NCBI GenBank assembly: GCA_018712785.1
Contig: DVGK01000069.1
Location: forward strand, 1 to 50,872
Direction: 5' to 3'
Origin: Candidatus Choladousia intestinavium
Lineage (GTDB): Bacteria > Bacillota > Clostridia > Lachnospirales > Lachnospiraceae
DNA: 50,872 nucleotides
Shown here: positions 5,552-21,299 of the stretch, in pieces
How positions within the stretch are numbered: the stretch's first letter is position 1
How the letters are laid out: every line of letters begins with the position of its first letter
The notes under the pieces: model-generated
The model's database searches: none
Seen by the model: the letters and a program-made list of their open reading frames with translations, nothing else
Told to the model about the DNA's origin: nothing
Program-made: the position numbers and the translations under genes

Positions 5552-6152
5552 TACTCGAGTAGATATGGGGATTACTCCCCATAGCCCTCCACAAAACCGC
5601 ACGTGCGCTATTAACGCATACGGCTTTTCACCTTATAAAGCGCACAGCCCTTTTCTCCGTCTGCTTTCACAGACTTCTACGATACTATGGCTGTGTCGGA
5701 CTTTCTGCCATTCATTTGAATTCCTGACGCATTTCTTTGTTTTGGTTTCCATACCTCTTTTAGAGGAAATGGCAGGATCTCAGCTGTTCCGATAACATAC
5801 TTATCATCAACCTCGCCAAGCTCTCTGACTGGGGGACGCCATTATACCCTCACCGTAACGGTTATAACGGTATTGTCTGCTGTGAACACTAACACATCGA
5901 CCTCTTCCGACCTCATAATACTTTCCCAGCTCAATCACTTCACTTGCGTTTCGGCTCTGTTGCTCCCTATCCTACGCTTAAACCTGGCGTTACCGCTTCG
6001 GCTCCAAGGACTCGGTACAGGCGGTTGGTTAGACCTTACCTGGTAGGTTTTCCCTACTGTATTGCTATCAGCTTACCAGAGCAAGTAGAGTTTCCTCCAC
6101 TCGCCAGGGGAAATCAGCTGCGCTGATTTCACAGCTCGCCCAGTGTTCACAT
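5552..6152 (-). mobile_element. Group II intron lacking its reverse-transcriptase ORF
   Basis: Read on the minus strand this stretch has bacterial group II intron architecture: domain-I-type segments (ACGCAAGTGAAG; CAACCGCC near 6020), linker elements, the start of a maturase-like frame, then domain V (5593-5628) and a domain VI hairpin (ATGGGG/CCCCAT, about 5566-5581). An ATG at 5715 opens MNGRKSDTAIV, matching my recollection of LtrA-type intron proteins, but it stops after 13 codons and no reverse-transcriptase domain follows. At about 600 nt it is an ORF-deleted derivative that would need splicing or mobility proteins in trans. Ends are approximate: the 3' end lies near 5552 (beside a CTACTCGAGTAG palindrome) and the 5' end, possibly GTGAACAC, near 6152. 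Confidence 0.8.
5593..5628 (-). ncRNA. Group II intron domain V
   Basis: The RNA hairpin AAAGCCGTATGCG / CGCACGTGCGGTTTT has the canonical domain V plan: a lower helix containing the AGC catalytic triad, a two-nucleotide bulge, a four-base-pair upper helix and a small loop (TTAATAG). Pairing is essentially complete, so the catalytic core is not obviously decayed. Confidence 0.85.
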
Positions 6153-9313: not shown

Positions 9314-10378
9314 ATGAAACGAATCATTTTGACAGGCGGCGGCACCGCCGGACATGTCACCCCGAACATTGCGCTGCTCCCTGCTCTGAAGGAGCGCGGC
9401 TTCGATATTCAGTATATTGGTTCCTATGACGGGATTGAGAAGAAGCTGATCGAAGAGCTCTCCATTCCCTATCACGGAATCGCTTCAGGAAAACTGCGGC
9501 GCTATTTTGACCTGAAAAACTTTTCAGACCCCTTCCGGGTAGCCAAAGGCTATTTCCAGGCCCGCAAGCTGTTAAAACAGCTGAAGCCGGACATCGTTTT
9601 CTCAAAAGGCGGATTCGTCACAGTACCGGTGGTGCAGGCTGCCAAAGGGCTGCACATTCCCGTTATCATTCATGAATCCGACCTGACGCCCGGACTTGCC
9701 AATCGGCTGGCTATTCCGGCCGCTACCAAGGTGTGCTGTAATTTTCCTGAAACCATTCCGTTTCTCCCTGAAGGAAAGGCCGTTCTTACCGGCTGTCCCA
9801 TCCGTCAGGAGCTTCGCCAGGGCAATAAACTGGCTGGTTTAAAATTCTGCGGATTTACCGCCGCAAAGCCGGTTCTCCTGATCATTGGAGGAAGCCTTGG
9901 TTCCGTAGCTGTAAACCGCGCTGTCAGAAGCATCCTTCCCAAGCTTTTAGATACCTTTCAGGTGGTGCATCTCTGCGGAAAAGGCAATGTGGACGAAGCC
10001 TGGAACCATACTCCGGGCTACATCCAGTTTGAGTATATTAAGCAGGAGCTGGCAGATCTCTTCGCCATGGCGGATGTCGTCGTATCCAGAGCCGGAGCCA
10101 ATGCCATCTGTGAACTCCTGGAACTGCGGAAGCCCAATCTGCTGATCCCCCTCTCCGCCGCGGCCAGCAGGGGAGATCAGATCCTGAATGCCAAATCCTT
10201 TGAAAAGCAGGGCTTCAGCAAGGTAATACAGGAAGAAAATCTCACAGACGAAGCTCTTCTGAACGGGATTCTCTCTCTGTATGAGAACCGCCTTACTTAC
10301 GTGGAAGCCATGGAAAAAAGCGCCTTCAGCCATGCTGTGGATACGATTCTTTCCCTGATCTGCGACATTGTAAAATAA
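9314..10378 (+). CDS. murG: MurG, lipid II-forming GlcNAc transferase
   Basis: Membrane-associated glycosyltransferase (GT28) that adds GlcNAc from UDP-GlcNAc to lipid I to give lipid II. It has the N-terminal [11 protein letters not shown] loop, [11 protein letters not shown], the second glycine loop [12 protein letters not shown] near residue 190, and the C-terminal [23 protein letters not shown] nucleotide-binding signature (quoted in part). Length (about 354 residues) is standard. ATG 9314 is preferred because GGAGG lies 6 nt upstream. It stands alone, opposite in direction to its neighbours, away from any mur/fts cluster, and is followed by a strong terminator. Whether it is the only murG of the genome cannot be seen here. 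Confidence 0.95.
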
Positions 10379-18844: not shown

Positions 18845-20215
18845 TCATCCTCCAACATAAGAAATCAGCTGCTGTGCCTCCCCTACGGAAGAATACACGC
18901 CGGCCGCCGTCAGCGCCCACAGCGCCGCTCCGTAGGCCGCCTCCTCCTTATGTACCGGAATCTGCATGGAAAGCCCGAATCTTTCCTCAAAGATTCTCTG
19001 AAGCCACGGATTCATCCGCAGGCCGTTTCCGCTTCCGATCAGGTATTTTGCCCTGGAAACGCCAAGCTTCTCCATCTCACGGTAAAACGTGTGAAGCTCT
19101 TCCGCCATGCCGTCCAGGATTCCCATAATAAAATCCTCCGGGGTAAAGTTCTCCAGGCCCAAGTTCGCAATGCCGCCCCGGCGCTCCGGCTCTCTTCTGG
19201 TACCGCAGAATCTGGTGTCAACCTTCAGAGTCGTCCCCTTCATTCCCCTCTCTTTCAGGATTCGGTCCATGGCACCATACAGTTTCCCCGGATCCTTACC
19301 TGTCATAAGCTCTGCCGTCCGCCGGAAGAAGCGCTCCAGGGCCGCATATGCCCTGCCTCCGCACAGGCCGGCTCCTACAAGGATATACTGATCCCGGCTG
19401 ATAGCCCGAAGCTCTGTTTTCTCTGCCTTCACATACCGGGTCAGTCCCGTGGAAATCTGGCTGGCGGTCCCTACATTTACCAGCACGCTTCCTTCCAGCT
19501 CTTTAACGGATCCCAGGACGCTGGCCTGGTTGTCGCCGATTCCGGTGGAAACCGGTATCCCCTCTGCTGTCTCTCCCAGCAGAGAACAGTCTGCCACACA
19601 TTCCGGAAGAATCTCCGGTTCTATTCCGGCGTTTTTTAATGCCTCCCGGTCATATTCCATCTTCTCTAAATGAAAACAGCCGATGCTGGCTCCGTCTGAC
19701 ACAGACAGGCAGGGAGCCTTTCTTCCCGTCAGCTTCATTCCCATATAATCATGGATCGTACAGATGGACGCCGCCCCTTCCGGAACCAGATGGTTTTTCA
19801 GATTATAAAAATGCGTGGTAAGGCCGAATCCTGTGGCCATTGGGTATCCCGTAAGCTCTGACAGCACCTCCGCATACGTCTTTCCCTCTTCTTCCGGATA
19901 AGGTTCATTCCCCCGTTCGTCCTGCCATGTAAACAGAGGGCTTACAGCCTTCCCTTCCCGGTCCGTATATAAAACTCCATGCATCTGCCCTGTCAGTCCT
20001 ACACAGGAAATGTCAGAATGCTCTGAGAGAAATCCCCTGTAAATTCCTCCCACCAGCTCCCAGATTCTCTCCGGGTTCTGCAGATCCTCATAAGCCTCTC
20101 CCCTGAAAGCCGAATCATTATCCAGGGTCTTTACAGCCTCCACCTTCCCGGTTGCCGCGTCCAGCAGAACGCCGCAGACCGTTGTAGTCCCGATATCAAT
20201 TCCAACCGCGTACAT
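18845..20215 (-). CDS. FGGY-family carbohydrate kinase, sedoheptulokinase-like
   Basis: A 456-residue sugar kinase of the ASKHA fold. An N-terminal phosphate-1 loop IDIGTTTVCGVLLD is followed by GLTGQMHGVLY, and then GIGDNQASVLGS in the region where sedoheptulokinases carry GDNQASF. A second phosphate loop VNVGTASQIS and a late adenosine region IGSGNGLRMNPWLQ complete the domain set. It would phosphorylate a ketose or polyol in the cytosol; sedoheptulose is the best guess, xylulose the alternative. AAAGGGG lies 6 nt before the ATG. No sugar transporter or other pathway gene is next to it. It may be read from the strong promoter at 20633-20661 if the leader terminator is passed. Confidence 0.85.
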   Translation of the reverse strand: MYAVGIDIGTTTVCGVLLDAATGKVEAVKTLDNDSAFRGEAYEDLQNPERIWELVGGIYRGFLSEHSDISCVGLTGQMHGVLYTDREGKAVSPLFTWQDERGNEPYPEEEGKTYAEVLSELTGYPMATGFGLTTHFYNLKNHLVPEGAASICTIHDYMGMKLTGRKAPCLSVSDGASIGCFHLEKMEYDREALKNAGIEPEILPECVADCSLLGETAEGIPVSTGIGDNQASVLGSVKELEGSVLVNVGTASQISTGLTRYVKAEKTELRAISRDQYILVGAGLCGGRAYAALERFFRRTAELMTGKDPGKLYGAMDRILKERGMKGTTLKVDTRFCGTRREPERRGGIANLGLENFTPEDFIMGILDGMAEELHTFYREMEKLGVSRAKYLIGSGNGLRMNPWLQRIFEERFGLSMQIPVHKEEAAYGAALWALTAAGVYSSVGEAQQLISYVGG

Positions 20216-20350
20216 TTATTTTCCCCTTTCTCATTGATTTTACTGGTGTCAGTCTGTCCTGTCCCGCAGTCTATCTTACGAAACCTCTTTCTCACACAGC
20301 CTTCCCCGCCGGATTACGAACAGGAAAAGCTCCTGACCTGAAAAAGATTT

Positions 20351-20397
20351 ATGGCACAGGAAAAACCTCTTACCGTAAAAAATTTTTCCTGTGCCAT
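20351..20397 (-). terminator. 15-bp perfect hairpin between leader RNA and kinase gene
   Basis: ATGGCACAGGAAAAA (20351-20365) and its exact complement (20383-20397) flank a 17-nt loop. On the minus strand it is followed by AAATCTTTTTC, a weak terminator tail. It lies between the leader terminator and the kinase start, so it could be a second terminator or an mRNA-stabilising stem. Confidence 0.5.
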
Positions 20398-20437
20398 AAA
20401 AAAGGGAGACATCGCAATCTTTTTTTGGATGCCTCCC
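20398..20437 (-). terminator. Intrinsic terminator of the leader RNA
   Basis: On the minus strand GGGAGGCATC and GATGTCTCCC form a 10-bp stem (one G-U) around a 14-nt loop, followed at once by six T. This is a textbook rho-independent terminator about 190 nt after the predicted transcription start. Confidence 0.85.
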
Positions 20438-20626
20438 GCTACTTCGCTGTGTCCAATGGACTTACCTTCCTTTCGTTTATATTATGAGTTTTAATTTAAG
20501 TTTTTGGTGGTCCGTACCTCACTTTCTTTTAATTTTATTTTCTTTCACTAAATACCTTCATTTAATGAATCGGCTTACCTTCCCATTGGAATCTCCTCCT
20601 TAGGTTTTGTTCAGCTTTTATTGTAT
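20398..20626 (-). ncRNA. Candidate structured leader or small RNA of unknown class
   Basis: A predicted transcript of about 220 nt runs from a consensus promoter to an intrinsic terminator and contains no ordinary gene. Near its 5' end AAGGAGGAG (20593-20601) precedes a three-codon frame ATG-GGA-AGG-TAA (20575-20586). The ATG lies in TCCAATGGG, which can pair over 9 bp with CCATTGGA about 130 nt later (20452-20459), closing the RNA into one domain. The motif GGAAGGTAAG occurs in both halves. The middle is AT-rich with a TTCATTAAATGAA hairpin. It may be an attenuator for the downstream sugar kinase or a free small RNA; I could not match it to a riboswitch class. Confidence 0.6.
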
Positions 20627-20632
20627 GTCAGT

Positions 20633-20661
20633 ATTATAACTTCCATCTTTATTTTTGTCAA
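20633..20661 (-). promoter_or_regulatory. Perfect consensus sigma-A promoter for the leader RNA
   Basis: On the minus strand TTGACA (20656-20661) and TATAAT (20633-20638) match consensus at all twelve positions with 17-bp spacing. Predicted start is near 20626. Such a promoter implies very high basal initiation and hence control after initiation. Confidence 0.9.
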
Positions 20662-20779: not shown

Positions 20780-20861
20780 AAAGGGCGTCAGTGAAAACCA
20801 AATTTCCCGCTGCCTGCAGGAATCAATGACAAAAAACAAGAAAAAGAAAGGAGTCATTACT

Positions 20862-21299
20862 GTGATAAAGATTCAGATCCGTGAAGCCCGAATCCAGGAT
20901 GCCAATTTCATACACAGGCTGAACTGCCGGGAAATGGGATATGCGTATCCTCTGGAAAAAACCATTGAAAAGCTGGAAAAGATACTGGGCAGTCCCCACG
21001 ATAAAGTTTACGTAGCCGAATTTCAGGATTCTGTTGTTGGATATGTCCATGCCAATGACTACGATCTTCTCTATGCCCCGTCTATGAAAAACATTATGGG
21101 AATCGCTGTATCCTCTGATTTTAAACGGCAGGGGGCGGGAACCGCCCTCTTAAAGGCAGTGGAAGAATGGGCGAAGAAATCCGGCGCCTCCGGAATCCGC
21201 CTGGTTTCAGGAGCGGACAGAACCGGCGCCCACGAATTCTATCGGCAATTCGGCTTTGGAAAGGGGAAGCCCCAGTTAAACTTTAAAAAAATATTCTGA
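20862..21299 (+). CDS. GNAT family N-acetyltransferase
   Basis: An acetyl-CoA-dependent N-acetyltransferase of about 145 residues. The GNAT fold is visible: N-terminal IQIREARIQDANFIHRLN, a central beta strand VYVAEFQDSVVGYVH, motif A IMGIAVSSDFKRQGAGTALL (acetyl-CoA pyrophosphate loop Q-x-x-G-x-G/A) and GADRTGAHEFYRQFGF at the end. The acceptor substrate is unknown. The GTG at 20862 is favoured because AAAGGAG lies 8 nt upstream; an in-frame ATG at 20826 has no ribosome site. Monocistronic. Confidence 0.9.
   Translation: MIKIQIREARIQDANFIHRLNCREMGYAYPLEKTIEKLEKILGSPHDKVYVAEFQDSVVGYVHANDYDLLYAPSMKNIMGIAVSSDFKRQGAGTALLKAVEEWAKKSGASGIRLVSGADRTGAHEFYRQFGFGKGKPQLNFKKIF

Follow-up and report, generated by a model that had tools for sequence, protein, structure and literature searches.

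The window, a 50,872-nt stretch of DNA from Candidatus Choladousia intestinavium (contig DVGK01000069.1), carries an RNA on its minus strand at positions 20661–20398, which extends for approximately 230 nt from a consensus promoter to an intrinsic terminator. The downstream gene was named as an FGGY-type sugar kinase and the divergent upstream gene as acetyltransferase-like, in both cases by reading the sequence rather than by a family search. A first-pass annotation of this DNA had noted that the interval contains no normal gene, and no open reading frame (ORF) of at least 80 aa appears in the ORF list between 20216 and 20825. The same annotation had called a promoter in which all 12 bases match the consensus with 17-bp spacing. 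This call was confirmed, and the promoter is a perfect one of the sigma-A type with A/T-rich sequence on its 5′ side. Five promoter-like sites were returned by a scan of the region, compared with a mean of 1.9 after shuffling, and the match at all 12 positions was obtained only at 20661–20633. The TTGACA and TATAAT hexamers are unchanged in all seven rows of the alignment of relatives. The coordinates of the features are collected in Table 1.

Table 1. Features of the RNA locus and its neighbours, listed in the direction of transcription of the RNA
Feature	Positions	Strand	Detail	Basis
Acetyltransferase-like gene	20826–21299	+	divergent, upstream	reading of sequence
Promoter	20633–20661	−	TTGACA (20661–20656), 17-nt spacer, TATAAT (20638–20633)	12/12 consensus
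Unit 1	20575–20601	−	SD AAGGAGGAG (20593–20601), TTCCA, minigene ATG GGA AGG TAA (20575–20586)	
Local stem-loop between units 1 and 2	20544–20569	−	predicted only	MFE structure
Unit 2	20496–20522	−	GTGAGG-TACGGACCA, P-site codon CCA (20505–20507), AAA ACT, TAA (20496–20498)	
Unit 3	20439–20473	−	SD AAAGGAAGG (20465–20473), TAAGTCCA, ORF 3 TTG GAC ACA GCG AAG TAG (20439–20456, LDTAK*)	
Intrinsic terminator	20398–20438	−	hairpin and T tract, abuts ORF 3 stop codon	predicted fold
Second strong hairpin	20348–20400	−	with T tract, tandem to first terminator	terminator scan (20397–20351)
FGGY-type sugar kinase gene	18845–20215	−	downstream	reading of sequence

The terminator described in the first-pass annotation is present in the predicted fold as a hairpin followed by a T tract; the simple terminator scan lists the second hairpin only. 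This second hairpin stands between the RNA and the sugar kinase gene, and similar hairpins were recognized by eye at two of the related loci (L002 and L003). The absence of a match to any known riboswitch, as stated in the first-pass annotation, was borne out by a covariance search with Rfam 15, in which no match at the gathering score was obtained over the RNA in the window or at 66 other loci (the window and 18 loci searched at gathering, 8 loci at E ≤ 1, and 40 loci at E ≤ 0.05). The sub-threshold matches at 20350–20437 are mostly to eukaryotic miRNA models that fall on the terminator and the second hairpin, and were judged to be due to chance; a sub-threshold match of the miRNA type also falls on the terminator hairpin of L003. 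The sole Rfam match at the gathering score within the window is a group II intron (RF02005, 118 bits) at 5819–6052 on the minus strand.

The three-codon frame ATG-GGA-AGG-TAA behind a strong SD sequence, reported in the first-pass annotation, is real, yet it is only the first of three units, and unit 2 and ORF 3 had been missed. The repeat is a unit of approximately 27 nt that consists of a purine-rich SD, a few nucleotides, CC(A/G), a P-site codon, and an in-frame stop codon. In full, the three copies are AAGGAGGAGATTCCA-ATG GGA AGG TAA, GTGAGGTACGGACCA-CCA AAA ACT TAA, and AAAGGAAGGTAAGTCCA-TTG GAC ACA GCG AAG TAG, with ATG, CCA, and TTG as the respective P-site codons. The core of unit 2, GAGGTACGGACCACC, was found again in many genera. 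The element GGAAGGTAAG, previously listed as a repeat, proved to be incidental: its first copy is made of codons 2–4 of ORF 1 and one further base, and its second copy is the SD of unit 3.

The fold of the entire RNA is better than those of shuffled sequences (z = −2.75, with 2 of 200 shuffles as good). With the terminator excluded (20440–20605), the fold is no better than the shuffles (z = −1.01, 28 of 200). The 9-bp helix that had been proposed to close the RNA, TCCAATGGG/CCATTGGA, can pair and appears in the predicted fold, yet it is regarded as incidental. Both sites are present in six of the aligned RNAs, the window included, and 9, 9, 9, 8, 7, and 5 of the 9 positions pair there; the three fully paired cases do not differ in sequence and hence offer no compensatory change. 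Both strands of this helix are the start-codon contexts of two units.

Related RNAs were located by BLAST in a set of 60 genomes, 9 of which gave matches, including G031 (90%), G019 (79%), and G011 (71%); the matches in G041, G044, and G050 are short. A second copy of the RNA was detected by BLAST in the genome of the window itself (contig C48, approximately 10082–10364, minus strand), where it lies upstream of the spoIIIA operon and has a degenerate first unit. Among the relatives, unit 1 takes the form start-x-x-stop, in which the start codon (ATG, once GTG) and TAA are constant and codons 2 and 3 vary: GGA AGG (MGR), GGA AAG (MGK), GGA ATG (MGM), AGA AGG (VRR), AAA AGG (MKR), AAA ATA (MKI), and GGA ACT (MGT). 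Of the elements named in the first-pass annotation, the promoter and the start-x-x-stop frame are kept in relatives, the MGR residues vary, and the helix lacks compensatory changes. Within the genus of the window, the exact unit-1 pattern AGGAGGNNNNTCCANTGNNNNNNTAA is found in 10 of 47 genomes. With up to one mismatch the count is 28 of 47, many of these one-mismatch matches resembling chance or ordinary gene starts, and the unit-2 pattern with up to one mismatch occurs in 5 of 47. As judged from these patterns, the RNA is patchy or fast-diverging within its own genus, being found in a minority of the genomes.

The number of units per RNA ranges from one to about ten. Seven SD-ORF units follow a single promoter at L042 (MYS, MDK, MGT, MRT, MRT, MKS, and then VKLEIIHL*), and a run of MYT* minigenes is found at L056/L101. 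Two-codon minigenes (ATG GCA TAA and ATG GGA TAG) exist as well. A sequence-only model, R1, was built from seven RNAs and returned matches at E ≤ 0.01 in 88 of 250 Lachnospiraceae genomes (or 86 of 246 when only the clean subset is counted); some of the weak matches may be due to chance, the target being A-rich. Units are visible in 27 of 29 newly fetched loci that were inspected; for the other two (L115 and L122) the RNA lay outside the inspected stretch. Named genomes were also scanned with an exact pattern; of the 37 stretches obtained, 30 are in records of Lachnospiraceae, Oscillospiraceae, other Clostridia, or Selenomonadales. The remaining seven, in other groups, were set aside as likely chance matches (L059, L064, L069, L071, L073, L084, and L089). 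The exact CCN unit was found in 5 of 323 genomes, that is, in 5 of 15 Lachnospiraceae and in 0 of 308 other Clostridia. This pattern understates the range of the family because ATG units occur in records titled Oscillospiraceae and Selenomonas. An exact search of the viral_contigs collection with one 25-mer gave no virus-borne copy. No described counterpart of a tandem-array RNA was found in the literature searched by title or by the beginning of the abstract, which does not establish its absence from print. The RNA is a member of a widespread and apparently undescribed family of the Lachnospiraceae, and confidence in its architecture and conservation is high.

An NTG start codon is not universal. 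Of the 157 units collected (a few sites were counted twice through overlapping matches), 96 have NTG and 61 have CCN at the start position, unit 2 of the window among the latter. The SD and the P-site codon lie 9 nt apart in 52 of the 61 CCN units and 8–9 nt apart in 72 of the 96 NTG units. The pattern RAGGTACGGACCA was searched in 396 genomes and gave 84 matches in 77 genomes, representing 68 of 280 genera. After removal of 27 matches with less than 60% A+T following the core, which are mostly chance matches in genes, 52 of those kept had CCN; the filter also removed a few real-looking non-CCN units (in G440, G144, G174, G227, and G244). Among these 52 AT-rich CCN units, a stop codon is found at codon 3 or 4 of frame 0 in 42 (37 TAA, 4 TAG, and 1 TGA). 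The corresponding numbers for the other two frames are 10 and 4, and composition-shuffled sequences gave a mean of 13.3 and a maximum of 25 in 2000 shuffles. Eight of the 10 exceptions stop at codon 6.

A second set, collected with another core, consisted of 39 matches, spread over 36 of the 396 genomes; 31 matches were kept and 8 were dropped for having less than 60% A+T. A stop codon is found by codon 4 of frame 0 in 22 of the 31, compared with 6 and 1 in the other frames and with a shuffled mean of 8.1 and a maximum of 17 in 5000 shuffles; as in the first set, kinship is ignored in these unit statistics, and units that share a genome or lineage are only partly independent. None of the seven units that stop at codon 3 (five in the first set and two in the second) has a stop at codon 4, which fits a need for one early stop rather than for UAA at a fixed site in the RNA. 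A less favourable count is obtained from the 84 CCN units of promoter-bearing RNAs, where 60 stop at codon 3 or 4 and 24 do not, 10 of the latter stopping at codon 5 or 6. When the CCN pattern was shortened by one N, so that the frame is off by one base, it was found in 0 of 333 genomes, compared with the 5 of 323 for the pattern in frame. There is selection for early stop codons in one frame of the CCN units. CCN is not known to act as a start codon, and the decoding of these units is consequently deduced from the stop-codon statistics only.

A special initiator tRNA with an NGG anticodon was sought with the strict pattern GGGYTNGGAACCC in 30 genomes and rejected: the pattern matched 14 sites in 12 of them, whereas the reversed control matched 32, and no tRNA gene was present at the 12 GGGYTNGGAACCC loci that were fetched. 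A stable SD-sequestering hairpin in every unit was not accepted either. Of 61 single-unit folds, 45 have the GG paired downstream, yet they vary in shape, and T-T is frequent at the third pair (37 of 157).

In most cases the last unit is an ORF of 5–8 residues, such as MDSIV*, MDNEI*, or LDTAK*. From 109 loci, 72 promoter-bearing entries were tabulated (some of them stem from the same RNA, and a few, such as L138, are doubtful), of which 58 have a recognizable terminator. In 41 of these 58 RNAs, an SD-led NTG ORF of 3–11 codons, including the stop, ends between −2 and +6 nt from the start of the terminator stem, and at exactly +2 in 25. In 32 of the 41, the distance from the start codon to the start of the stem is 16–19 nt, which is approximately the distance to the leading edge of an initiating ribosome (toeprint distance). 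Such an ORF was recognized by eye in eight of the other 17 RNAs (L052, L075, L083, L096, L097, L119, L121, and L167). The recurring peptides include MDSIV, MDNEI, MDTVE, LDTEN, and MIEISV; an MDHQKR row in the peptide list is an artefact of overlap. The codons of MDSIV vary (Ser as AGC, AGT, or TCA; Asp as GAC or GAT), and the stop may be TAA, TAG, or TGA (MDSIVL counted). The exchange of synonymous codons and of all three stops suggests that selection acts on the peptide itself as well as on the RNA. The last ORF, a five-codon gene in the case of MDSIV*, is evidently constrained as a coding sequence. Unit 1 and the last units have the sequence properties of translated minigenes: an SD, a start codon, and, a few codons on, a stop in the same frame, all of them under selection. 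Translation is, to judge from the conservation of the early in-frame stops and of the last ORF, central to this RNA.

The genomic context was compared for the RNAs whose next gene could be scored with a simple ORF caller. The downstream gene is co-oriented in 38 of 50 cases and opposite or convergent in 12, including L020, where the RNA ends before a convergent gene; the co-oriented fraction is slightly higher than the upstream-gene baseline of 34 of 52. Among the loci compared, mostly with 1.5-kb flanks, only those of the window genome, G031, and G019 have the sugar kinase next to the RNA. Downstream of the RNA, spoIIIAA is found in at least 12 genomes (G000, G006, G007, G011, G012, G029, G060, G067, G090, G158, G189, and G452), which hints at some local role. 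No conserved co-oriented downstream gene, as would characterize a leader, was found. Because the downstream genes differ and are sometimes convergent, the RNA would be mainly a free RNA and not a leader of the kinase, with a favoured site upstream of spoIIIA; in view of the co-oriented fraction, it may act as a leader at some loci. The first-pass annotation had offered two functions. The free small RNA is supported, the promoter, SD, and minigene being kept in relatives; attenuation of the sugar kinase does not hold as a general function.

Among the alternatives to the preferred reading given below, a translation-sensing attenuator is the least improbable and is nonetheless unlikely. A ribosome on the last ORF would cover the 5′ arm of the terminator and permit read-through into the kinase or spoIIIA genes, as could be expected from the contact between the last stop codon and the stem, the slight excess of co-oriented downstream genes, and the recurrence of spoIIIAA. 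It is opposed by the variation and convergence of the downstream genes among relatives and, in the window RNA, by the second hairpin before the kinase. Moreover, the MFE and centroid structures of the window RNA, the one folded in full, contain no antiterminator alternative, and most of the internal units would be superfluous.

The reading preferred here, for which we see about an even chance, is that the locus encodes a free-standing RNA made of an array of ribosome-docking minigenes. The RNA seems made for ribosome engagement and not for a normal protein, and it is fairly likely that ribosomes act on it. Each docking unit would consist of a strong SD, a P-site codon (NTG or CCN) at initiation spacing, and an in-frame stop 2–5 codons further on. 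Ribosomes or 30S subunits would load on each unit and then leave, having made at most a tri- to octapeptide or having stalled without initiating. The last unit would be a real minigene of about five codons, with its stop codon set in the foot of the terminator. The RNA could in this way be coated and stabilized by initiating ribosomes, and it may hold or cycle them. We infer ribosome occupancy, abundance, and a role in titrating initiation capacity or in the ribosome-dependent stability and termination of the RNA itself. A more specific form of this proposal is unlikely: the internal CCN units would be decoded without a start codon, the SD alone placing CCN in the P site and setting the frame, and the ribosome would be released at an obligatory stop 2–3 codons later. 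The RNA would then take up or sense initiating ribosomes in a tunable way, and its 3′ end would be made by a terminator coupled to the translation of a five-residue peptide gene.

If the docking proposal is correct, what is mainly conserved in this strongly promoted RNA of many Lachnospiraceae is a set of ribosome-binding sites, each closed at once by a stop codon. This would point to control at the level of translation, or to a means of managing ribosomes, in bacteria that dominate the gut. It also raises the question of whether ribosomes can load on CCN codons, and read from them in a fixed frame, when the SD is strong. A five-codon gene (MDSIV*) with coding constraint is also supplied.

Lambda bar is a bacterial minigene. 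Such minigenes, which include mg2 of axe-txe (PMC8708949), share with the present family an ORF of 2–3 codons behind an SD, often ended by UAA; the cases found are single, lie within an mRNA, and affect a downstream gene or are toxic. The units of the family are in contrast arranged in tandem in a free RNA, many have no start codon, and the last one is joined to the terminator. A two-codon minigene is translated, and a ribosome on the strong SD of a mini-ORF is reported to shield an RNA (PMC8708949). Strong SDs, even without a start codon, stabilize RNA in bacilli (PMC3997798). These STAB-SD stabilizers of Firmicutes resemble the family in their strong SD, optional start codon, and position in a leader region, but they are described there as a site that protects an mRNA, whereas the units of the family are repeated, contain in-frame stops, and account for most of the RNA. 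Ribosome-mediated attenuators with upstream ORFs (the cysS and hflX motifs, PMC8632094) likewise couple a short ORF to structure, but they precede fixed genes, whereas the family has varied or convergent neighbours. The minigene and strong-SD precedents each explain only a part, and none of those found is a free tandem array.

The STAB-SD precedent lends itself to another explanation, quite unlikely, in which the RNA is a base-pairing small RNA, the SD units only stabilize it, and the regulatory part is the variable spacer or the fixed hairpin loop TGACGAGAAAG, which occurs on different stems in 13 of the 72 tabulated RNAs. The spacers differ among subfamilies, the window RNA is without the TGACGAGAAAG loop, and neither the number of units nor their stop codons would need to be maintained.

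Sponge RNAs of the CsrB/RsmZ type are also free RNAs with many SD-like repeats, in which GGA is located in hairpin loops. In the present family, GGA is found in many SDs, the core varies (ACGGA, ACAGA, AGATT, ACAGT), and the single-unit folds are without a common GGA loop; the conserved elements are GG..CC, the P-site codon, and the stop. CsrA (PF02599), for which GGA binding and sequestration are described (PMC4894983), was not found in the window genome (90% complete) or in seven other genomes of the same genus that were tested, so a CsrA sponge was rejected. Of 40 RNA-positive genomes, 9 have CsrA above the cut-off, as do 12 of 20 R1-negative ones. The latter group is not purely RNA-negative, since two of its members (G095 and G097), neither with CsrA over the cut-off, have a unit-like match. 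A sponge for another RNA-binding protein is the least probable of the explanations: it would explain why a mostly A-rich RNA has, as sponge RNAs do, many GG..CC units that resemble SDs and one another, and the bases just inside GG/CC are associated (T-A in 54 and A-T in 44, but T-T in 37 of 157, confounded with unit class), but a protein site needs neither in-frame stops nor a conserved last-unit peptide.

Several further elements accompany the units. The TGACGAGAAAG loop is 11 nt long, and its carriers include L008, L042, L045, L055, L067, L075, L092, L096, L104, and L114; two of the carriers are Selenomonas RNAs with ATG GGC AGG TAA. It may be a second conserved module. Two recurring domains were recognized by eye in the spacer between the promoter and the units, one in L094, L095, L096, and L075 and the other in L097, L105, L111, and L113, which suggests RNA subfamilies. 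Five loci from Oscillospiraceae or Clostridia records (L057, L058, L061, L065, and L081) have longer RNAs that carry one minigene immediately after the −10 box and, at the 3′ end, an ORF (for example MLDIKSEQK*) overlapping the terminator. A CGGTG(T/A)TACG...ATAG segment is common to four of these five by eye. Eight genomes (G013, G062, G021, G001, G008, G020, G023, and G004) share the context AGGAGGAAAATCCAATG CTGAATAAA, or one much like it, at the start of what is probably one orthologous gene.
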